A stretch of 64,000 nt of DNA from Verrucomicrobia bacterium Tous-C9LFEB. GTDB taxonomy: Bacteria; Acidobacteriota; Terriglobia; Terriglobales; Acidobacteriaceae. Positions 16,679-29,399 of the stretch are shown here, piece after piece (position 1 is the first letter of the stretch; each line of letters begins with the position of its first letter). Both the position numbers and the translations under genes were made by a program. The stretch is from positions 1 to 64,000 of the forward strand of contig CAJCIP010000005.1 in assembly GCA_903970445.1 (NCBI GenBank), in the 5' to 3' direction. Under the pieces are notes generated by a model that was given only the letters and a program-made list of their open reading frames with translations, made no database searches and was not told the DNA's origin.

Positions 16679-18052
16679 ATGCTGCTGAGCACCCCTTCTT
16701 TTGCTGCCTTCTTCGTCGTTGTGTGTTTTGCCTACTGGGCCCTCTATGGGAGCCGGCGGGCGCAGCAAGTTTTGCTGCTCGCAGCGAACTGCTTCTTCCT
16801 TCTGAAGTTTGGGCCGGTGTATCTGGGGCTGATTGCCTTCGCGACGTGCGACTTCCTGCTGGCTCGGCGCATGCCTGCGAGCTTGCCGGCCGCTAAGCGC
16901 CTTCTACTGCTCGCGTCGTCGGTGCTCAATCTCGGAGCCCTGGCAGCGCTCAAGGTGCTTCCGCTATCCAGCGGCGATCGGTTCGATTGGCTGTTGCGTT
17001 TGAGCCTATCGTTCTACGTGTTCCAGTCGCTCAGCTACACCATCGACATCTACCGCGGCGAGGGCAAGCCAACGAATGACTGGCTTGTCTATCTTTCATC
17101 CGCGCTTTTCTTCCCGTCCATTGTTGCGGGGCCAATACCGCGGCAGCGGAAGCTGCTGAAGGAGATCAGCGCTCCATTCCACCTTGACTCTGCGCTTGCC
17201 GCGCGCGCGTTCCTGTTGATTGGCACAGGGCTTGTGAAGAAGCTGCTGATTGCGGACTATCTGGCTGACAACCTTGTGAATCGCGTCTTCGATACGCCAA
17301 CTCTGTATAGCGGACTGGAGAATCTAGTTGGCGTGTACGGCTATGCGCTGCAACTGTTCTTCGACTTCTCCGGATACACCGATCTTGCGATGGGTATCGC
17401 GCTGCTTCTGGGGATACGACTGCCGGAGAACTTTCGTCTGCCGTATCTTTCCGTAAATCTGCAGGATTTCTGGAAGCGCTGGCATATCAGCTTCTCGTCC
17501 TGGCTGACGGACTACTTGTTCGAGCCGCTGCCGAAAAGCCGCAAGTGGCTTCGCATGAGTTACTGCTCTGCCTTCTTGCTGACGTTCCTGCTTGGCGGGC
17601 TGTGGCACGGCATGGCCTGGACGTTTGTGATCTGGGGTCTGCTGCACGGCTTCGGATTATCGCTGGTGTTCGTGTGGGCGAGATGGCGCAAGGCGCGCGG
17701 CGCAGGACGAGGAACGTTGTGGGGACGTGTGCTCGGTACGTTGCTCACGTTCCACTTCGTCTGCTTTACATGGGTTTTCTTCCGTGCCGAGAGTGTCCCC
17801 CAGGCGCTTGAGGTGCTTCGTCAGATCGGGTCGCACACAGTGACTGCTGAGAACCTGAGTAGCCGTGTACTGCTGGTGCTGCTCGCTGCCGCAGTGCTGC
17901 ACTGTGTTCCTCAGTCACTTTTTGAACGCTCTGAGAAGCTCACGGCGCGTGTTCCCTTTCTGCTACAGGGGGCGGCGCTGGCAGGGCTGGTACTTGCGAT
18001 TCAGAGTCTGGCGGGGAAGGGTTCGGCACCATTCGTTTATGGCAAGTTCTAA
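16679..18052 (+). CDS. MBOAT O-acyltransferase (AlgI/DltB-like)
   Basis: Integral membrane acyltransferase of 457 residues with about 11 hydrophobic segments. It moves acyl groups across the inner membrane to extracytoplasmic acceptors. MBOAT features seen are SFYVFQSLSYTIDIYRGE, FFPSIVAGPIPR, LFFDFSGYTDLAMGIALLLG, FWKRWHISFSSWL (His269) and the invariant His310 in GGLWHGMAWTF, with His323 nearby. Length matches AlgI and DltB. It is the first gene of a unit with two SGNH proteins, a DltC-like carrier and a KASIII-like protein; the SGNH gene starts 14 bp before its stop. The ATG at 16679 has no strong ribosome site, but upstream codons do not extend the fold. The donor is probably a carrier-bound acyl group; its nature is unknown. 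Confidence 0.9.
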   Translation: MLLSTPSFAAFFVVVCFAYWALYGSRRAQQVLLLAANCFFLLKFGPVYLGLIAFATCDFLLARRMPASLPAAKRLLLLASSVLNLGALAALKVLPLSSGDRFDWLLRLSLSFYVFQSLSYTIDIYRGEGKPTNDWLVYLSSALFFPSIVAGPIPRQRKLLKEISAPFHLDSALAARAFLLIGTGLVKKLLIADYLADNLVNRVFDTPTLYSGLENLVGVYGYALQLFFDFSGYTDLAMGIALLLGIRLPENFRLPYLSVNLQDFWKRWHISFSSWLTDYLFEPLPKSRKWLRMSYCSAFLLTFLLGGLWHGMAWTFVIWGLLHGFGLSLVFVWARWRKARGAGRGTLWGRVLGTLLTFHFVCFTWVFFRAESVPQALEVLRQIGSHTVTAENLSSRVLLVLLAAAVLHCVPQSLFERSEKLTARVPFLLQGAALAGLVLAIQSLAGKGSAPFVYGKF

Positions 18053-19769
18053 CGCGGCGAAGACTGTAGCCGGCGCCTCGGGCTTTCCGTGGAAGCCGGC
18101 GCTCGCCAGTCTTACTGTGTTCGCAGCGCTGTTCGCGTGGCATCGCTTCAGGAATCCGGAGACCGGACTCTACCCATCGATTTTTGCGGACGCGTTCAAA
18201 GTGCATCTTCGCGCTGCGGCGAAGCCGGCTCATAACGCACGTAAAGGGACTGCGCTAACAATTGCTGCAAAGCCGGGAAGCGTGCCGGCGGCCGCTGGAG
18301 GAAGGCCGCCGATCTCGGCATTTCTGATCGACGACTCCGGTGCGCTCGATCCTTTCTTCGCTTCGCTGCATGAGCTTGAAGCCGGAAAGCAAGCGGTAGT
18401 CACGGTGCTGCACTACGGCGATTCACCCACGACGGCCGACCTCATCACCGGCGATGTTCGCGCGCTGTTACAAGCGCGCTTCGGAGATGCGGGACACGGC
18501 TTTAACCTCATTGCGAAGCCGTGGGCCTGGTATGGACACAGAGATGTAGCGATCTCCGACCACGGATGGAAGTCGATCACAGGCGTTGGATCGATGCGGC
18601 AGGCGGCGTATGGCCTGGGCGGCGCGCGCTTTGAGGGCGAGAGCGGCGCAAAGACAACGTACAAACTTGCGGACGCAGCACAAACAGATGTCGAGTTGCA
18701 GTTTTTTACGGAACCGGAAGGCGGTACGGTGACGATTACCGCCGATGGTATCCAGGTGGAGACGGTTAACACCAAGGGCGACGCGGGGGAGCCGTCAGCG
18801 AAGTTGGTGCATCTACCGGCGAACACAAAGGAAATTGGATTGGCGGCAAACGGCCCTGTCACGCTGCTCGGAGTTGATTTCAAGCGCGGCAGTCATGGCG
18901 TTGTTTACGACAGCCTTGGACTGAATGGGGCGTCGACGACTGTGTTGTCTCGTGCGTTTGATCCATCGCTGTGGACGGCAGAATTGCAGCACGCGGCACC
19001 GGCGCTCGTTGTGATCAATTACGGGACGAATGAGAGCAGCTTTGGTGCGTTCGTCGACAAACAATACGAGGGCGAACTGCGAACGGCGGTTGCGCGTGTT
19101 CGGAAGGCGCTTCCGACGACACCGATTTTGATCATGAGTCCCATGGACAGGGGTGAACGCGCCGGACTGAACGAGATTCGCACGATGGACACCATCCCCC
19201 GCGTCATCGCGATTCAGCAAAAGGTGGCGGCCGATCTTCACTGTGCATTCTTTGACACCTTTGATGCGATGGGTGGCGATGGCACCATGTCGGATTGGTA
19301 CAACGGGAAGCCGCGGCTGGTTGCGGCGGACCTGATTCATCCGACACCGCAGGGCGCGCTGATCGTGGCGCAGGAGATGGTCGACAACCTGAATCTGGGC
19401 TATTTGCGTTGGGAAAAGATGCAAGGCATCGCTGCGCAAGCGCCCGTGGCCGCGCAGGCGTGCCGCCCGGTGGCTAAGACAGACCTGGCGAAGACTGAGG
19501 TGGCGAAAGGCGCCGACCTGACTCCGCCCAGAACCATCGGTGCGCCCGCCGAGCCGCTGCCTGCGACCAACTCGGCACCGCAGGCAGGGTCCTGGCATGG
19601 GCGAACGCTTCCGCCCTGCCCGCCAAAGGCTGCTCCCGCAAAAGCACAAACGAAACCAAATGAGGCGAAGTCCAATGCAACAGCAAAGGCCGCCACTTCC
19701 GGCGATACTAAGAAGAATGACCGTTCAAACGCCGGCGAAGCGACGCCGGTACCCCCGCCTCATCTTTAG
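18039..19769 (+). CDS. SGNH/GDSL-family protein, membrane-anchored (first of two)
   Basis: Predicted extracytoplasmic acyl-transfer or esterase protein, 576 residues from the ATG at 18039, which overlaps the MBOAT stop by 14 bp. One hydrophobic segment lies at residues 20-35. The SGNH set is present: Ser129 in HYGDSPTTAD, Asn331 in NYGTNES, and Asp431/His434 in DLIHPTPQGA. A beta-rich insert (residues about 205-280) precedes the GTN block. The C-terminal 100 residues are Ala/Pro/Lys-rich and look disordered. In DltD and AlgJ/AlgX systems such proteins take the acyl group from the MBOAT and pass it to the polymer, the likely role here. An upstream GTG-type start would only add MBOAT-overlapping residues. 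Confidence 0.85.
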   Translation: MASSNAAKTVAGASGFPWKPALASLTVFAALFAWHRFRNPETGLYPSIFADAFKVHLRAAAKPAHNARKGTALTIAAKPGSVPAAAGGRPPISAFLIDDSGALDPFFASLHELEAGKQAVVTVLHYGDSPTTADLITGDVRALLQARFGDAGHGFNLIAKPWAWYGHRDVAISDHGWKSITGVGSMRQAAYGLGGARFEGESGAKTTYKLADAAQTDVELQFFTEPEGGTVTITADGIQVETVNTKGDAGEPSAKLVHLPANTKEIGLAANGPVTLLGVDFKRGSHGVVYDSLGLNGASTTVLSRAFDPSLWTAELQHAAPALVVINYGTNESSFGAFVDKQYEGELRTAVARVRKALPTTPILIMSPMDRGERAGLNEIRTMDTIPRVIAIQQKVAADLHCAFFDTFDAMGGDGTMSDWYNGKPRLVAADLIHPTPQGALIVAQEMVDNLNLGYLRWEKMQGIAAQAPVAAQACRPVAKTDLAKTEVAKGADLTPPRTIGAPAEPLPATNSAPQAGSWHGRTLPPCPPKAAPAKAQTKPNEAKSNATAKAATSGDTKKNDRSNAGEATPVPPPHL

Positions 19770-21255
19770 CTGCTTTTTCACTTTGGTGTCTTGCTGGATG
19801 GCTTCCGCTGCTGTCACGAAGCATTTAAGAAACTCGCGGCCCCAAGTAGCGCAAAGAAGCCGGGGGGCTGCGGCCAGACCACGGACAAAGGCCGCCGTGC
19901 GCGGTAAGTCACGACCGGTGCATTCGACTTCACGTGCGGCGCCACACGGGCGGACGACGACGGCTGGTCGCGGGTACCCCCGGCGTGCTGCCGTTCCGCG
20001 CGAAGTGTTCAATCCTGCGGCACGGCTGGATACCATCAGCGATCTGTCCTATTCGCTCGCTCATGGTGCTTCCGCGTTGGCGTACCCGGCCGCGTTGGAA
20101 AGCTTCTATGAGGCGCTGGCGGAGCAGCAGACGGATTCGTCGTCAACAGTGCGCGTCCTTCAGTATGGCGATTCGCACACGGCGGCTGATATGTTCACCG
20201 GCGAAGCTCGCCGCGTTTTTCAAGGGCAGTTTGGCAATGGCGGAATTGGCTTCAGCTATCCGGGGCATCCGTTTGCCGGGTACCGCATTTATGGCTCGCA
20301 GAGAGCGCAGTCGAGCGGGTGGAACACGCTGGGTACGCATTTTCTTGAGCTAGGGGATGCCAAACTGGGTCTGAGCGGGCTGGCTCTTTCGACGTACTCT
20401 CCAGGGCAGTGGATTTCGCTCGATACGCCGTGCGCCACGTTTCAGCTTGATTTTCTCCAGCAGCCCGGTGGCGGCACGTTGCAAGTGGCCGATAACGGAG
20501 CTTCGGTGGGCGAAGTTGAGACTTCGGGTGCTTCGGGTGAAGCCGGCTCCTGGCGGTACGACTGCCCGGCGGCGAATGATCTAGGCCAACATCACTTCAC
20601 GGTGACTACAGAGGCTAGCGCGCCCGTGCGGCTGTTTGGAACAACGACCTTACAGCCAGGCGTGACGTGGGAAGCAATGGGACTCAATGGAGCCCAAGGA
20701 CCGCTGATCCTCGACTGGTACCAGCCGATCTTCACGTCGTACCTGGCGAAGACAGGCGCTTCGTTGATTGTGCTGGCGTATGGAACGAATGAGGCCGCAG
20801 CGCCGCACTGGACCTATGAGAGCTACAGCGAGACGTTTGGGCACATCGTTGACCTGATCCATGCGACCTTGCCGTCCGCGTCGATTTTGGTACTGGGACC
20901 GTCGGATCGTTCGACCGCGGCTGCACGGCGAGGATTCGCTCCGTTCAATGGAACCGAGCGCATTGTGGAAGCACAGCGAGACGTTTGCCGGACACACTCC
21001 TGTGCGTTCTGGAATACGCAACATCGCATGGGAGGATTCGGCGCGATGCAACGCTGGGTATATGCAGGGTGGGCGCAGCATGACCACACCCATCTCAACG
21101 GTGAAGGCTATCGGGTACTCGCGGATGCACTGATGGCCGATCTGCTTTCAGGCTACGATAGCTACCGTGCCGCGCGCGGGCTACCCGTATTGCCTACGCT
21201 ACGTGGCGGCTTGCCGCCAACAGCACCATCCGTCTCACCGGCCATACCCCGATAA
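19717..21255 (+). CDS. SGNH/GDSL-family protein, exported (second of two)
   Basis: Paralogue-like partner of the preceding protein, 512 residues from the ATG at 19717. The N-terminus is a signal/anchor (basic RRRYPRL, then IFSCFFTLVSCWMASAA), followed by a very Arg/Ala/Thr-rich linker of about 60 residues. The SGNH set is Ser153 in QYGDSHTAAD, an Asn in LAYGTNEAA, and Asp/His in DHTHLNGEGY. The position of a beta-rich middle insert matches the first SGNH protein. The start overlaps the upstream gene by 53 bp. ATG at 19675, with GAGG nine bases before it, is an alternative that gives a longer, less signal-like N-terminus. The catalytic serine here is followed by His (GDSH) rather than Pro as in its neighbour. 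Confidence 0.83.
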   Translation: MTVQTPAKRRRYPRLIFSCFFTLVSCWMASAAVTKHLRNSRPQVAQRSRGAAARPRTKAAVRGKSRPVHSTSRAAPHGRTTTAGRGYPRRAAVPREVFNPAARLDTISDLSYSLAHGASALAYPAALESFYEALAEQQTDSSSTVRVLQYGDSHTAADMFTGEARRVFQGQFGNGGIGFSYPGHPFAGYRIYGSQRAQSSGWNTLGTHFLELGDAKLGLSGLALSTYSPGQWISLDTPCATFQLDFLQQPGGGTLQVADNGASVGEVETSGASGEAGSWRYDCPAANDLGQHHFTVTTEASAPVRLFGTTTLQPGVTWEAMGLNGAQGPLILDWYQPIFTSYLAKTGASLIVLAYGTNEAAAPHWTYESYSETFGHIVDLIHATLPSASILVLGPSDRSTAAARRGFAPFNGTERIVEAQRDVCRTHSCAFWNTQHRMGGFGAMQRWVYAGWAQHDHTHLNGEGYRVLADALMADLLSGYDSYRAARGLPVLPTLRGGLPPTAPSVSPAIPR

Positions 21256-21266
21256 GGAGCACGACC

Positions 21267-21503
21267 ATGGACTACCGCCCTGGCATTTTGAAAGTACTAC
21301 ACGCCGTCGCCGGCGAAGAGATCAACCCCGAACCGGATGAGAGCCTCTTCAGCTCTGGTCTGCTGGATTCGTTCACGCTACCTGACTTCGTCAGTGGCCT
21401 TGAGCAGGAGTTCAGCATCACCGTTCCTGACTCCGACCTTTCTGCGCGCAAGTTCGACACCGTGGAGAAGGTCGAGACGTACCTTGAAGACAAAGTGAGC
21501 TAA
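21267..21503 (+). CDS. DltC-like acyl carrier protein
   Basis: Carrier protein of 78 residues, the same length as DltC. The phosphopantetheine site is Ser35 in GLLDSF; DltC has the same GLLDSF with Ser36. The segments around it (DESLF before, LEQEFSITVP after, and a DTVEKVETYL final helix) also follow the DltC pattern more than the FabA-pathway ACP pattern with DSL. AAGGAG overlaps the upstream stop, seven bases before the ATG, so translation should be strong. No dltA-type adenylation gene is in the window. The gene after it starts immediately at its stop codon. The role, to carry an acyl group to the MBOAT protein, is inferred from the neighbours. Confidence 0.85.
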   Translation: MDYRPGILKVLHAVAGEEINPEPDESLFSSGLLDSFTLPDFVSGLEQEFSITVPDSDLSARKFDTVEKVETYLEDKVS

Positions 21504-22442
21504 ATGGCTTTCCTACGCGGCTTTGGGAAATACCTGCCTGAGCGCGTCGTTACGAACGATGAACTCGCGGCAGTGTGCGGGGTGGAGGCTGAGTGGATCC
21601 TGAGCGCTTCGGGAATACGCGAGCGCCGGTACGCTGCTGATGCCGAGACGGTTGCTTCGCTCGCGACGAGCGCTGCGAACGACTGTCTGACCCGTTGCAG
21701 TCTTGAAGCGGCAGAACTTGGCATGATCATCGTGGCGTCCGGGTCGCCAGATCGTTATACGCCCGGGCCGGCCGCGATGGTGGCGCAGGCGCTTGGCTTG
21801 AATTCAACTCCAGCGCTTGATGTACCGGTGGCGAGTGCGGGTTCCCTTATCGCGATGGCTATGGCCTCGCAGTTTGCCGGGACTGTTGGACCAGTGCTCG
21901 TGATTGGTTCTGAGATTATGTCGCGGCGGGTCGAACGAACGCCGGAAGGCAAGAACACCGCGATCTTGTTTGGCGACGGCGCCGGGGCGGTGCTGATTCA
22001 CCCAGGCGAGGGTCTTGCGCGAATTCTCGATCACGTGCTGCGGACCGATGGCTCAGCAGCGGAGATCCTTCGCATTGAAGATCGTCACCTGCACATGGAC
22101 GGCGGCAGTGTAATCCTCCAGGCTTTGAGAAAGATCCCGGCGGCAATGAAGGAGCTAATGGATAGGCATAGCATTTCGCCGGAGCAGATCGGTACGGTGA
22201 TCATGCATCAGGCGAACCTGAACCTGATCCAGCGTGTGGCGAAGGTGTCCGGCATTGCGCTGGAGCGTTTTCCCGTAAACATCGATCATTATGGGAATAC
22301 TTCGTCGGCTTCCCTGTTGATTGCCGCGGCAGAATGGAACGAAGGGCGCAACGATCTGCCTGTTGACGGACACCTGCTCTTTGCGGCCTTTGGAGCGGGC
22401 TTGAACTGGGGCGCGCTGTTAGCTTCTTCCGCAAAGGAATAG
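21504..22442 (+). CDS. KASIII (FabH)-like protein with Ser in place of the catalytic Cys
   Basis: Thiolase-fold protein of 312 residues, the length of FabH. The pattern includes GFGKYLPERVVTN at the start, ILSASGIRERRY, GDGAGAVLI, the His motif MHQAN (His235) and NYGNTS-like DHYGNTSSAS (Asn265). At the position of E. coli Cys112 the codon is AGT, giving Ser111 (PVASAGS instead of the usual AACxGF). Condensation by the normal thioester route is therefore unlikely. DpsC of daunorubicin synthesis is a known KASIII-like protein with a Ser here that handles acyl-CoA. The ATG follows the carrier stop without a gap. It probably loads or selects an acyl group for the carrier; this is inference. Confidence 0.86.
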   Translation: MAFLRGFGKYLPERVVTNDELAAVCGVEAEWILSASGIRERRYAADAETVASLATSAANDCLTRCSLEAAELGMIIVASGSPDRYTPGPAAMVAQALGLNSTPALDVPVASAGSLIAMAMASQFAGTVGPVLVIGSEIMSRRVERTPEGKNTAILFGDGAGAVLIHPGEGLARILDHVLRTDGSAAEILRIEDRHLHMDGGSVILQALRKIPAAMKELMDRHSISPEQIGTVIMHQANLNLIQRVAKVSGIALERFPVNIDHYGNTSSASLLIAAAEWNEGRNDLPVDGHLLFAAFGAGLNWGALLASSAKE

Positions 22443-24610: not shown

Positions 24611-25618
24611 GTGCTACAGGTTTTGGCTTTGCGTGACATTGATACCAGCGTTGTTCTAGCGACCTGCAGTCGCGCTCGCATGCTCCGCGGAGCATTATCG
24701 AGCCTGCTTGCCGAGGCGGCGAGCTGGGACAAACCGGTCGAAATCGTAGTCGTCGACGACGGTTCCACGGACGATACGGCGGATGTTCTCGCTGACTTTC
24801 AGCAGACATCCGCTGTGCCTTTTGTGGTTGTCAACGGGCACCGCAAAGGCATCGCCGCCGCGCGCAACCTGGCGGCGCGGAACGCACGTGGCGTCTGGCT
24901 CGCGAGCTTTGATGACGATCAGATCGCGTTTCCCGGCTGGTTGGCGGCGCTGCGCGATATGGCCGAGTCAAGCGGTGCGGCATTCGTTGGCGGATCGCTG
25001 GCGTTAGATCTTCCTCCAAACAGAAGCCTCGATGAGTTTGGTCCGCGTGCGCGCCTCGTACTGGGCGAGAACTTGTCGCCGCCGGCTGCCCCGGCGTATC
25101 GTCCTGCCAGCAACAACGTGCTGATGCGACGTGATGTCTTTGATTCCCTCGGCGGGTACGACCGAACCTACACAGAGGGCGCGGAAGATGTCGATCTTTT
25201 TGATCGAGCAGTTGACGCTCATCACGCACTGGTCTTCCAGCCAGAAGCGAAGGCTCTTCACGTCACGCCGCACTCGCGTTTGGAGCGCAGCAATATGCGC
25301 TGGACCTCTATTCGCATTGGCGCCGGCGATGCCCGCCGCCTTTCACGCAAGGGAAAGACGAAGCTACTACGAATTGCTATCGCCCGCGCAGCCGTAGCTT
25401 CCCTGCGTGATATTCCACAGCTCGCCTGGTATGCAATCGCGGGCAATCGCAAAGGGAAACTCGACGCGCTTTGTAGCCTCTGGTACACGCAGGGATTGTT
25501 GCGGGGCATCCCGGCTTTTATCCGTCGAGGGCGCCGCGGCACATCCAGGTTTCTTCGATCGCTCGACTTTCGCTCACGTAACGGGGAGCGAACGGATTTC
25601 ACAGTGCGTGAGAAGTAG
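24611..25618 (+). CDS. Glycosyltransferase family 2
   Basis: Transfers a sugar from a nucleotide donor, probably in the cytoplasm at the inner membrane, 335 residues. GT-A signs are SVVLATCSRARMLRGALSSL at the start, VVVDDGSTDDT, and the metal-binding FDDDQI, followed by the acceptor region with GAEDVDLFDR (ED acid). The start is GTG at 24611; the first in-frame ATG would cut into the nucleotide-binding strand. It faces the exopolysaccharide operon convergently and is probably part of the same locus. Linkage and sugar cannot be told. Confidence 0.88.
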   Translation: MLQVLALRDIDTSVVLATCSRARMLRGALSSLLAEAASWDKPVEIVVVDDGSTDDTADVLADFQQTSAVPFVVVNGHRKGIAAARNLAARNARGVWLASFDDDQIAFPGWLAALRDMAESSGAAFVGGSLALDLPPNRSLDEFGPRARLVLGENLSPPAAPAYRPASNNVLMRRDVFDSLGGYDRTYTEGAEDVDLFDRAVDAHHALVFQPEAKALHVTPHSRLERSNMRWTSIRIGAGDARRLSRKGKTKLLRIAIARAAVASLRDIPQLAWYAIAGNRKGKLDALCSLWYTQGLLRGIPAFIRRGRRGTSRFLRSLDFRSRNGERTDFTVREK

Positions 25619-25672
25619 ATCAATTTGCGGCAGCTTGGTGTTGATTGGTTTGAGCGAGTTACAAAGAGCGGG

Positions 25673-25792
25673 AACGCGGACGGGCGCAAGGGAGACGCGA
25701 AGAGCGCGAAGCAAGCGTCGCGCTCGTTCGTTCCATTGTTTGGCTCACTTCTTCGCTTTGCTTTGCGAGTTCCTCTTCGCGGTTTTTGCGTT
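25673..25792. repeat. Long imperfect inverted repeat between convergent genes
   Basis: The left arm starting AACGCGGACGGGCGCAAG (25673-25717) and the reverse complement of the right arm starting AACGCAAAAACCGCGAAG (25748-25792) align over about 45 bases with several mismatches; both carry repeated CGC(G/A)AAG units. The two arms enclose about 30 bp. It lies between two gene ends, so it may work as a terminator or be a small non-autonomous repeat. Confidence 0.45.
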
Positions 25793-25800
25793 GCTGCTTT

Positions 25801-26916
25801 TCAGTTCGTCTGGCCAGCGGTTCTGAGAAGCTTGAGCGTTGTAGCTCGATCGCGCGAGTTTGCGTAAAGCGTTTGCGCAAGCTCGGCGCGGTAGAACTGC
25901 AGCACTGCCGGATTGTCTTCAATGCGAGCGTCCCCCCAGTCGGACCACTGCGGATACATGCTCCAATTCCAGTCGATGTAGCAGAACGCCTTGATGCCGG
26001 GTGAGCTGTGTATCAGCCCAAAGTAGGGCCTATACCAGGCCGCAACGAGACGGTCGCCTTCGATGACGGAGTGACCCTTCGGCGTGGATTCCCCAATCAT
26101 GACGGGCATGCGGTGCTTGTCTGCATCATGGAGGAAGTTCGCCGTCGCGTTGCTCCAGAGACTGGCAGCGCCGAAGATGTTTACGCCCCACCAATCTACC
26201 CACGCGTCACCAGGATAAAAGGCCAGATAGCGATGGCTTGCATCTTCCGCAGAAGCTCCGCCTTCCTCTGCATCAAGTTCCGCACCAGCGGACCAATCCC
26301 AGACAAGCGCTACGTCTTGAAGTCCGCAAGCCCGTATGTATCCGGCGATATGGCGGAACGCGGCTATGTAACTTGCAGGCGAATATCCGTTCCAGGAGCC
26401 GTTGAATTCATAGCCTACGCGAACGAAGACGGGGCGATTCAACGAACGAATCCCTTCACAGAGCTGCTGAAGATGTGGGTCCTCCTGGCCTGCGGCAACC
26501 GCGCCTTCGTAATGCTTCTTCGCGTCACCGGCGTTCAATGACAAGCCTATCTGCGGAATGATGAGATCGGGGAAACGCGCCAGCTCCCTATTCAAACGAC
26601 TGAAGTAGTTCGGAATGTCCTCATGCAAGTCGATGTAACTCATCGACAGCATGGGGCGCGTGGGCGATACGGCTTTGCTGTACGCCGCAAAACTACTTTC
26701 ATCACTTTGACCCGCTCCGTGAAGCACAACGGATTCGCGTGGCTCCAAACGTTTCCCGTAAAAAACTCGAGGCATAGGAGACTTGGTGTCGGCTGCGCGT
26801 AGCTTTTCTGCAGCATCACCAGTCCCTGATTCCGCTTTCTGCTGAGCGTGCCACCAACCCGCTCCCAGGAGAGCGAGCGCTATAACCGGAAGTGCAATCG
26901 AGCTTACACGTCCCAC
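25801..26916 (-). CDS. GH26-like glycoside hydrolase, membrane-anchored or secreted
   Basis: Predicted endo-acting hydrolase of 371 residues with an N-terminal hydrophobic segment (residues 6-22). The TIM-barrel signs match family GH26: acid/base Glu170 in VRVGYEFNGSWNGY, the aromatic-rich YPGDAWVDWWGVNIF, and the nucleophile candidate Glu276 in MIGESTP. It is the last gene of the exopolysaccharide operon: its GTG start directly follows the TAA of the glycosyltransferase, with GAGG about ten bases before. A hydrolase in such a place usually trims or releases the polymer made by the operon. GH26 often acts on mannans, but the substrate cannot be fixed from motifs. Confidence 0.8.
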   Translation of the reverse strand: MGRVSSIALPVIALALLGAGWWHAQQKAESGTGDAAEKLRAADTKSPMPRVFYGKRLEPRESVVLHGAGQSDESSFAAYSKAVSPTRPMLSMSYIDLHEDIPNYFSRLNRELARFPDLIIPQIGLSLNAGDAKKHYEGAVAAGQEDPHLQQLCEGIRSLNRPVFVRVGYEFNGSWNGYSPASYIAAFRHIAGYIRACGLQDVALVWDWSAGAELDAEEGGASAEDASHRYLAFYPGDAWVDWWGVNIFGAASLWSNATANFLHDADKHRMPVMIGESTPKGHSVIEGDRLVAAWYRPYFGLIHSSPGIKAFCYIDWNWSMYPQWSDWGDARIEDNPAVLQFYRAELAQTLYANSRDRATTLKLLRTAGQTN

Positions 26917-27897
26917 TTAGAGGACCTCGGGAAGACGAGAGTCGACCTGCGTCGCAGGGGTACCCTCCTCGTTTGGCAAGGCTGAAAGAGAACGTTTCCA
27001 CGCCGCATGCAGAACGAAATTGGGAAGCAGGCCGATACCCACTAGAAAGATCGTGTCGAGCGGCCGCGGACGGTTGCGCAGAACCTTGCCGGCAATCTCC
27101 CACAGTCCCCGCCAGTCACGCGCGCGCTTCGCCTTACGCGCGACCTTCGTGGCGAGGAAAGAGTTATACCCATCGTTACTGATCCAGCGTCGATACTGAT
27201 CCGCCCAGGCAAGTGAATCGCGCCAGTTCGCGCGACGGCTGCGCGAAACACTTTGCGTTGCTATGTTGTACACAACGAGCGGCTCCCAAACGAAGTCGAT
27301 GCGTGCGCCCGCTTCATGCCAGACCTCTAATAGCCATGCCCAATCCTCGTGATCCTTATGCGAGGTAAATGGAACTGATTCGAGAAGGCTGCGATGCATC
27401 AGCAGCGTCTGCACAGGCAAGACACCTGGGCGCCCACGCAATGAAGGTCGAATGAGAATGTAATCAGCAATGTCCTCCTCAGGCTCGATGGGACGCTTCG
27501 GCCACACGTCGTCTTGACCGTCATGCCTGTAGATCGTCCGACAGGAAACCATCCTTAGAGGATTTACCGTCCGAGCGAGGCGTAGTTGGTGCTCGACCTT
27601 GTGCGGGAGCATGAGGTCGTCGTCATCCAGGAAGGTGAGCCATTCGCCGCGGCTCATCTGTACGCCCAGATTGCGCGCTTCGGCAGGGCCGCTATTCCTT
27701 TCCAGCTCGAAATAGCGGAGCTTCGGGTGCGAGTTCACCAGCGCCGATTGAACGTCCGGATCGGGTCCATCAGACACAACAATGACTTCTATATTCGGGT
27801 GCGTCTGATCCAACGCACTCCCTACGGCGAGCCGGAGCTCGTGCAAGCGGCGGTACGTCGGGATAATGATGCTTACAAGATCAGATTGCTCGTTCAT
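26917..27897 (-). CDS. Glycosyltransferase family 2
   Basis: Cytoplasmic GT-A glycosyltransferase, 326 residues from the ATG at 27897. Motifs are VSIIIPTYRRLHELRLAV, VVSDGPDPDV, RNSGPAEARNLG and the metal-binding FLDDDDLMLP. The chosen start has GTGGAGACC just before it and opens directly with the first beta strand; a 68-residue upstream extension is Arg-rich and overlaps the previous gene, so it is rejected. The C-terminus has a hydrophobic stretch (FLVGIGLLPNFVLHAAW) that could attach it to the membrane. It follows wzy by 20 bp and builds the repeat unit, probably by adding one sugar. Confidence 0.88.
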   Translation of the reverse strand: MNEQSDLVSIIIPTYRRLHELRLAVGSALDQTHPNIEVIVVSDGPDPDVQSALVNSHPKLRYFELERNSGPAEARNLGVQMSRGEWLTFLDDDDLMLPHKVEHQLRLARTVNPLRMVSCRTIYRHDGQDDVWPKRPIEPEEDIADYILIRPSLRGRPGVLPVQTLLMHRSLLESVPFTSHKDHEDWAWLLEVWHEAGARIDFVWEPLVVYNIATQSVSRSRRANWRDSLAWADQYRRWISNDGYNSFLATKVARKAKRARDWRGLWEIAGKVLRNRPRPLDTIFLVGIGLLPNFVLHAAWKRSLSALPNEEGTPATQVDSRLPEVL

Positions 27898-27917
27898 GGT
27901 CTCCACTGTGCTGTATG

Positions 27918-29399
27918 TCAGAGCACCGTCATCCGCCGACGCGGAGGCGATGCAGGCATCCCAAGGCCTACGACGCGTGCGGGATTCAACAGTTCCGAAG
28001 GACGTGCTGTCGGCGAAGGCAGACCGTGCACAATCTCGTCTCCGAAGTGGGAATCCGTTTCGTCTTCGGACCCCTCCACCAGACACATTTTCACGAGGCA
28101 TGTGTAGGCAAGAAGCGTCGGCAGATACGGGTCAACGGGTACAGACTCTGCAATACCGGTCAAGGCCACCCACGTAAGAAGAATAGGTGGAAGAAGGGAT
28201 TGTTCGGAAGGCTTGCGCAGGAAGCGCCGCCACGCCATTACTGCTCCACCCCCGAGCAAGCCGATGTAAAGCAGCATTCCGACCACGCCGAGTGACAAAG
28301 TCTGATCGAGATAGGTGTCGTGCGCGTGAGGAACCATCCATCCCTGGTCTGCTGATATTCGCTCGACACGCGCGGGCGTCCAGAACGCCTCATAGCCATA
28401 ACCCACGAGCGGATGAACGCGAACGCTTTCCATCAACTCGGCCCACAGGGGAGCACGGTTCGAGAGATTCGACGTGTTCTCTGTGTCCTTGCGGCCCATC
28501 ATGAAGGCGCTTTGCGCAGCGCCTTCGCCGCCGTTGCGGCCTATCGCAAAAATGACTGCAGGTACGACGACTGTAAGTCCGACTACGAGCGCCAAAGTTC
28601 TCGCCTGAGGCTTCAGGTGTTGCCGGCCATACCGAACGGCCAGAATGGCAAGGAGGAGGAGTCCGAGGATCGAGCCAAGACGAGAGCGCGTGAGATACAG
28701 CAGGATGAGACCCACACCCATGACAGGGGCGATCCAGCGCAACCAGTGCGGGCGCTTTTGCAGCAGTGTCATGCCGCAGATCATGCACATCACCAGGTTC
28801 ATCGCCTGGTAGTTCGCGGTCATCACGCCGTTGAAGCGGTAGTCAGGGTCAAATGGCGCAAACTTCTTTTCCTGCAGCACCTCAACATAGACGGAGATGA
28901 GCGCGACAATCCCGGTCTGGGCAAAGCCGAAGAGCGCCATCTCATCGCCGCTCAGCACACGAGCCACGGCCATGGCAAAGAAGCAATTGATGCAGAAAAC
29001 GATGAGCCGTTTTCGCGTGATCGAGGGGTCACCACTCCAGCCTGCGCTAAGAATCGCCCAACCTAGATACATGATTGCAATGGGCATCAACCGACTGCCG
29101 AAGCGTCCGCGTTTAGGAAGACGCCAAATCAAGAAAGCCGCTGCCAACGCGATGATCGGCATAGCCACTTGACGGCTGAAGTTTCCCTCGTAAGCCGCAG
29201 CCTCGTTCGCCGCAGCTTTCTTCGGGTTTGGATCGATCTTGAGCGGCAGGTAGTACGGAACGGAGTACCAGAAACATACACCGAGCAAAACACCGCAGAG
29301 TATTTTGATCACGCGGACACGGTAGGACTGGCGCTCGAACTCGTAATTTATGCGCGTGCGCTCGGCGTAGGCGAGCCGCTCTGCGATTTGGGCTCTCAC
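27918..29399 (-). CDS. O-antigen ligase/polymerase family protein (Wzy-like)
   Basis: Polytopic membrane protein of 493 residues with about 11-12 hydrophobic segments, the size and layout of Wzy polymerases and WaaL-type ligases. The long periplasmic loop in the second half has the family pattern NLSNRAPLWAELMESVRVHPLVGYGYEAF followed by PHAHDTYLDQTLSLGVVGMLLY, where the His of AHDTYL is conserved. In a Wzx/Wzy locus with a co-polymerase the polymerase role is the likely one. The start is GTG in a GTGA overlap with the flippase stop. The last 50 residues, from about SEDETDSH, are polar and probably disordered in the cytoplasm. Confidence 0.87.
   Translation of the reverse strand: MRAQIAERLAYAERTRINYEFERQSYRVRVIKILCGVLLGVCFWYSVPYYLPLKIDPNPKKAAANEAAAYEGNFSRQVAMPIIALAAAFLIWRLPKRGRFGSRLMPIAIMYLGWAILSAGWSGDPSITRKRLIVFCINCFFAMAVARVLSGDEMALFGFAQTGIVALISVYVEVLQEKKFAPFDPDYRFNGVMTANYQAMNLVMCMICGMTLLQKRPHWLRWIAPVMGVGLILLYLTRSRLGSILGLLLLAILAVRYGRQHLKPQARTLALVVGLTVVVPAVIFAIGRNGGEGAAQSAFMMGRKDTENTSNLSNRAPLWAELMESVRVHPLVGYGYEAFWTPARVERISADQGWMVPHAHDTYLDQTLSLGVVGMLLYIGLLGGGAVMAWRRFLRKPSEQSLLPPILLTWVALTGIAESVPVDPYLPTLLAYTCLVKMCLVEGSEDETDSHFGDEIVHGLPSPTARPSELLNPARVVGLGMPASPPRRRMTVL

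Follow-up and report, generated by a model that had tools for sequence, protein, structure and literature searches.

ORF and Pfam analysis of the window, which is the whole 64,000-nucleotide stretch of DNA analysed here, showed five intact co-directional genes at positions 16679-22442. They lie on contig C5 of a genome of 3.68 Mb, which its named relatives place in the Acidobacteriota. The five open reading frames and their domain calls, as given in a first-pass annotation of the DNA, agreed with the ORF coordinates and Pfam matches. The genes are as follows.

16679..18052, + strand, MBOAT acyltransferase of 457 aa (PF03062, 1e-22), ending in FVYGKF
18039..19769, + strand, SGNH1 (PF13472, 1e-16), an Ape1-like SGNH protein with an N-terminal membrane anchor and a long Pro/Ala-rich tail
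19717..21255, + strand, SGNH2 (PF13472, 9e-10), an Ape1-like SGNH protein with a signal-like N-terminus
21267..21503, + strand, DltC-like carrier of 78 aa (PF00550, 4e-7), with the phosphopantetheine site GLLDSF and Ser35
21504..22442, + strand, KASIII-derived protein (PF08541 and PF08545; NCBIfam PRK09352 above cut-off)

Neighbouring genes were joined, in order, by a 14-bp overlap, an overlap of ~50 bp, an 11-bp gap and a 0-bp gap, so the earlier figure of at most 11 bp held for the gaps and was exceeded by both overlaps. The most likely start of SGNH2 was 19717, with 19660 and 19675 as alternatives. A promoter and terminator scan gave a signal no better than that of shuffled sequences. Just downstream of the unit, at 24611-29399, two family 2 glycosyltransferases, a weak GH26-like protein and a Wzy_C protein form a polysaccharide locus.

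In the alignment of the KASIII-derived protein with E. coli FabH, S111, H235 and N265 fell on C112, H244 and N274, which confirmed the Ser-His-Asn triad proposed from the first reading. A tree of 109 KASIII proteins placed the unit-linked KAS proteins (14 with Ser and 3 with Cys) on one branch with 100/98 support, and the remaining 92, among them the genome's own FabH, outside it. The catalytic Cys was replaced by Ser in 50/53 members, and a sequencing slip was thereby rejected as the source of the Ser. Arg36 of FabH was lost in 53/53, Arg249 was kept in 1/52, Lys214 was changed too, and the decarboxylation residues His and Asn were kept in 52/52, at an identity to FabH and BioZ of ~35-40%. 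We take Arg249 and Lys214 to be residues that dock ACP in FabH, and Ser is the catalytic residue of FabD-type transacylases. Arg36 of FabH positions the substrate (PMC10054515), and its His and Asn stabilise the decarboxylation intermediate (PMC10054515, PMC7645780). In BioZ, the Cys-to-Ser change C115S left condensation dead, with the acyl group still taken up on the Ser (PMC7645780), and ChlB3 is a KASIII-like acyltransferase which loads a discrete ACP (PMC9573744).

The unit-linked KASIII proteins which retain Cys were found in G075 (L022/L073), G063 (L074) and G291 (L013); they have lost Arg36 and form the sister group of the Ser members. G075 and G291, the two Cys members in which position 249 was read, have lost that Arg too. 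Docking and CoA positions had also changed in two of the Cys members read there, so loss of the docking surface preceded, or was apart from, the change from Cys to Ser. That the unit's KAS might be the only FabH of the genome was considered and rejected, as a canonical FabH is encoded on contig C108 and AcpP on C124.

The best solved relatives of the carrier were DltC proteins, in line with its earlier description as DltC-like, and the NCBIfam DltC model matched it at 1.6e-11, under its equivalog cut-off. Throughout the unit's carriers the DSF is kept, as is an acidic residue at the fifth position after the Ser; the matching residue of DltC is Glu40, which contacts DltB (PMC11035591). Two PP-binding proteins were found in the genome, namely the carrier of the unit and one on C124 aligning as AcpP. 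No AMP-binding protein was found in or beside the unit, the genome's three lying on other contigs, and the KASIII-derived protein does stand where DltA would be, as had been supposed.

The nearest solved relative of the MBOAT protein was DltB (1e-30), and the TIGR04091 model matched at 1e-60, below cut-off. All 28 unit-linked MBOATs have the C-terminal end FxYxxF, which reads FVYGKF in the window. This is an acyl-shuttle motif with a Tyr, borne by PatA-type MBOATs themselves and by the separate DltX in Dlt (PMC12148441). The 28 proteins formed one clade (SH-aLRT 100) apart from nine others, in a quick tree with SH-aLRT support only and with most of the nine outside MBOATs from the same genomes. 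The residue after the motif Tyr was usually Gly, Ser, Thr, Ala, Asn or Gln in the linked proteins, and the form FxYFxF occurred in 3/28 of them compared with 7/9 of the other MBOATs. A similar division was seen at the loop aligned with the DltC-docking helix of DltB, which is described in PMC11035591. Here LGGNR or LGGSR was read in 1/28 linked and 7/9 other MBOATs, the linked proteins having LPG or similar where the carrierless MBOATs have these motifs. Since the changed loop sits where the donor should dock, it may reflect the replacement of CoA by a carrier as donor.

Two further MBOAT loci were observed. The genome of the window (G000) encodes a second MBOAT on contig C15 (L076, 7568-8992), which ends in FIYFKF, and no carrier gene was recognised beside it. 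In G013, another Acidobacteriota genome, an MBOAT, a DltC-like carrier and an AMP-binding ligase lie in a row (L079, 7222-10616). This Dlt-like unit resembles ours in that the MBOAT gene adjoins the carrier gene, but it is loaded by a ligase, as in Dlt, and its MBOAT falls outside the KAS-linked clade.

The best solved relative of SGNH1 was the peptidoglycan O-acetylesterase 4k3u (2e-19). Its Ser129, Asn331, Asp431 and His434 are intact, and the catalytic residues were invariant in 10 aligned members. SGNH1 opens with a short N-terminus followed by a hydrophobic stretch, as in an anchored protein; its structure model was poor (mean pLDDT 39) and was used solely to note the N-terminal helix. 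SGNH2 matched 4k3u, which is of the Ape1 type, at 1e-34, and its Ser169, Asn374, Asp472 and His475 (numbers count from 19669) are intact and invariant in aligned members. SGNH2 was modelled with a mean pLDDT of only 60, and its predicted fold agreed with Ape1 along the full length of both domains (Z 29.7, 27.3 and 26.4; rmsd 3.3-3.4; 325-337 residues). Other SGNH proteins matched this model with Z of at most ~15, and PatB with Z 12.7, so that Ape1 stood ~10 Z units higher. Both proteins match Lipase_GDSL_2 and Ape1, not DltD. In both, the block II Gly, which true PatB transferases lack, is apparently retained (within GLNGA, which does not vary among aligned members and was assigned by eye), and on this ground neither seems to look like PatB.

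The distribution of the unit was then surveyed. SGNH1 was found in at least 12 of 297 genomes spread over the phylum, and all 12 carry a KASIII of the unit branch together with the carrier, the two usually adjoining. Within the class, SGNH1 or a paralogue was found in at least 73 of 349 genomes; in both surveys part of the candidates per genome was scored, and the counts are lower bounds. Among the 67 class genomes that have SGNH1 or a paralogue and are new relative to the first survey, the unit's KAS subfamily was present in 62 (threshold E <= 1e-52, every candidate scored), and the five genomes without a match are drafts of 140 to 1,040 contigs. The KAS gene lay within 3 kb of an SGNH gene in 46/62 genomes, mostly at a spacing of ~280 bp, which leaves room for one carrier gene; the Fisher p obtained in this comparison takes no account of relatedness and serves description only. 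Three genomes from the first survey show the complete order MBOAT-SGNH1-SGNH2-carrier-KAS, as do one named Acidobacteriales MAG and most of the additional loci that were read, covering two families, and the variant order SGNH2-MBOAT-SGNH1-carrier-KAS was found in G075 and G063. When named genomes were scanned with the KAS alignment, the carrier-adjacent members came from Acidobacteriota records only, among the matches listed. MBOAT and KAS distances were correlated over 25 genomes (Mantel r 0.88, p 0.0001), which partly reflects shared species history, and the same three genomes (G075, G063 and G291) were set apart in both trees. Conservation in related genomes had been named beforehand as the test that could refute the proposal, and the unit proved conserved by KAS presence, by proximity and by gene order in two families. 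Co-occurrence and gene order ruled out chance clustering. These results strongly support that the five genes form a conserved unit.

The unit is not intact in every genome. The genes were split over loci in G349, G468, G536 and others, with the carrier-KAS pair, or SGNH2 with KAS, placed at a second locus in G187, G289 and G349. In G187 and G289 the carrier and KAS genes stay paired away from the MBOAT genes, and at these two loci (L066 and L067) the pair, far from the MBOAT trio, adjoins fliW/flagellin and purine genes in one case and genes for phenylalanyl-tRNA synthetase in the second. A carrier and a Ser-type KAS were also found in G100 (L070, 7666-10771), where a CBS-nucleotidyltransferase and a hexapeptide-repeat protein flank the pair and a DegT aminotransferase lies near it. 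SGNH1 was not found in G100 in the phylum survey, in which part of the candidates per genome was scored, and the pair there may serve a different sugar acylation. Its presence in this other gene setting suggests that the carrier-KAS pair is a portable acyl-loading cassette. In three genomes of family f2 (L214, L215 and L219), a gene for a metallo-beta-lactamase-fold hydrolase lies directly upstream of the MBOAT gene.

The close co-occurrence might mean little if the carrier and KAS served lipid metabolism and merely adjoined a normal PatA/Ape1-like trio run on acetyl-CoA. Such an arrangement would account for the 16/62 genomes in which KAS is not within 3 kb of an SGNH gene, and for the pairs of G187 and G289 beside flagellar, purine or tRNA-synthetase genes. 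However, the genes occur closely together even when split, MBOAT and KAS have diverged in a correlated way, carrier-docking and CoA-binding positions are altered in both proteins, and the housekeeping FabH and AcpP are encoded separately, which makes this explanation improbable. A relay in which KAS acts on the unit's own carrier is, in our judgement, likely.

When compared with known systems, the unit resembled two of them in part. It shares with Dlt (DltA-DltC-DltB-DltX-DltD) a DltC-like carrier, a DltB-like MBOAT, an SGNH protein outside and the FxYxxF acyl-Tyr shuttle. Unlike Dlt, the unit has a KASIII-derived protein instead of DltA, has no DltX gene, with FxYxxF fused to the C-terminus of the MBOAT protein, has Ape1-like SGNH proteins rather than DltD, and is found in a Gram-negative phylum, the Acidobacteriota. 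The label Dlt-like, under which the locus was first described, therefore suits the carrier half of the unit, but not its PatA-kind MBOAT with the fused shuttle motif or its Ape1-like SGNH proteins. These parts recall the PatA-PatB-Ape1 operon of Gram-negative peptidoglycan O-acetylation, which likewise has one MBOAT with the fused motif and two SGNH genes; in the unit at least one of the two has the full Ape1 fold, and the model of SGNH2 matches, over its full length, the Ape1-like esterases with an inserted carbohydrate-binding module (Z 26-30). In contrast to that operon, where PatA uses acetyl-CoA and no carrier (PMC12148441), the unit includes a carrier and a KASIII-derived enzyme, and neither of its SGNH proteins seems to look like PatB. 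The unit is neither a Dlt nor a Pat/Ape1 operon, but a mixture of both which lacks defining features of each.

The KASIII-derived protein has the fold of ChlB3 and CerJ, KASIII proteins turned to acyl transfer, of which ChlB3 loads a discrete carrier; their triad is Cys-His-Asp compared with Ser-His-Asn here (PMC9573744), and they work in natural-product pathways, whereas envelope acylation is proposed for the unit. With the condensing enzymes FabH and BioZ it shares the fold, the His and the Asn, but it differs from them in the Ser, in the changes at Arg36, Lys214 and Arg249, and in its separate branch.

The first-pass annotation had proposed a surface glycan as the acceptor. A glycan is still indicated, and peptidoglycan is more likely than an unspecified one. 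Ape1 acts on the O-acetyl groups of peptidoglycan, and O-acetylation blocks lytic transglycosylases (PMC7083599). In ten loci from the window's family (L063, L064, L065 and L205-L211), the further flanks of which differ, a gene for an RlpA-like lytic transglycosylase (PF03330) was found divergent beside that of the MBOAT protein; it was found in 0/8 other MBOAT loci. The window itself lacks this neighbour, the genome's two copies being on C126 and C127. Taken together, the Ape1 fold and the RlpA-like neighbour point to peptidoglycan as the probable acceptor. The same relay could instead act on exopolysaccharide or lipopolysaccharide, since polysaccharides of plants and bacteria are substrates of SGNH-CBM proteins too (PMC9487903, and the lower-ranked fold matches of SGNH2), and glycosyltransferase and Wzy_C genes lie 2-7 kb downstream in the window. 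We consider this rather unlikely: polysaccharide genes were not a constant neighbour in the relatives' loci, as against the RlpA-like gene of the ten family loci, and no other SGNH fold came within ~10 Z units of Ape1.

On this evidence we propose that the unit is probably a carrier-fed MBOAT-SGNH relay which acylates the cell envelope, most likely peptidoglycan. The KASIII-derived protein would charge the holo-carrier with a short acyl group. It would most likely do so by transacylation without condensation, using Ser111 as FabD uses its Ser. The acyl-carrier would then dock on the cytoplasmic face of the MBOAT protein, as DltC does on DltB, which is suggested by homology and by the changes at the docking site. 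From there the acyl group may pass to the Tyr of the protein's own FVYGKF, a motif that is present in the sequence, in the manner of PatA. The anchored SGNH1, with its intact catalytic residues, would take the group and esterify a glycan hydroxyl, and SGNH2 may share in the transfer or remove the group, as Ape1 does. Peptidoglycan would be the final acceptor, as the Ape1 fold and the RlpA-like neighbour suggest.

The donor step leaves more room for choice. Acyl-CoA, the donor named earlier besides acyl-ACP, became doubtful, because the loss of Arg36 in every member argues against a plain acyl-CoA site. The genome's three AMP-binding proteins could load the carrier instead. Among the reactions of a KAS, we rank transacylation first, at about an even chance against all others, then decarboxylation of malonyl-carrier, then condensation. 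A pure transacylase does not lead one to expect the invariant His and Asn, as ChlB3 and CerJ have His and Asp. These two residues favour a decarboxylation step, which could turn malonyl-carrier into acetyl-carrier or form part of a condensation. In the former case FabD would load malonyl, and KAS would act like a KSQ domain and remove CO2, giving an acetyl-carrier that feeds peptidoglycan O-acetylation. With His and Asn invariant, Cys mostly replaced and Arg36 lost in all, this is a serious if less favoured rival, but Cys is kept in three unit-linked members, and the known KSQ domains carry, to our knowledge, Gln and not Ser. There is a precedent for envelope synthesis fed by acetyl-ACP that arises when malonyl-ACP is decarboxylated (PMC8666670), but the detour would need a reason, as PatA uses acetyl-CoA directly (PMC12148441).

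If KAS instead condenses, a 3-oxoacyl group would be built on the carrier, perhaps reduced by FabG to a 3-hydroxyacyl group, and an unusual acyl group put on the envelope. The kept His and Asn and the three members with Cys would agree with such a role, a dedicated carrier is easiest to understand if the acyl group is not available as a CoA thioester, and DpsC is a Ser-containing KASIII homologue described as condensing (PMC9573744). Condensation is nevertheless unlikely because the Cys-to-Ser change abolished it in BioZ (PMC7645780); moreover, Arg36 is gone and no reductase gene lies within the unit. Transacylation onto the carrier remains the reading that we prefer.

The claim that no system of this make-up has been described agreed with our search, in which none was found in open-licence PMC papers. 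In the current model, MBOAT-SGNH pathways other than Dlt have no carrier, since they use acyl-CoA (PMC12148441). The unit is a conserved apparent exception, in which a carrier apparently feeds a PatA-like MBOAT that bears the shuttle motif itself, and the candidate loader is ligase-free and taken from fatty acid synthesis. As a tentative extension, a widespread Acidobacteriota system might attach a non-acetyl acyl group to peptidoglycan through an ester bond, by means of a dedicated carrier and a Cys-less KASIII branch which makes or loads the group, as a third feed beside ligation by DltA and direct use of acetyl-CoA. The unit makes it testable how the donor of an MBOAT switches between CoA and carrier, and it points to a wall modification, so far unstudied, in one of the major phyla of soil.
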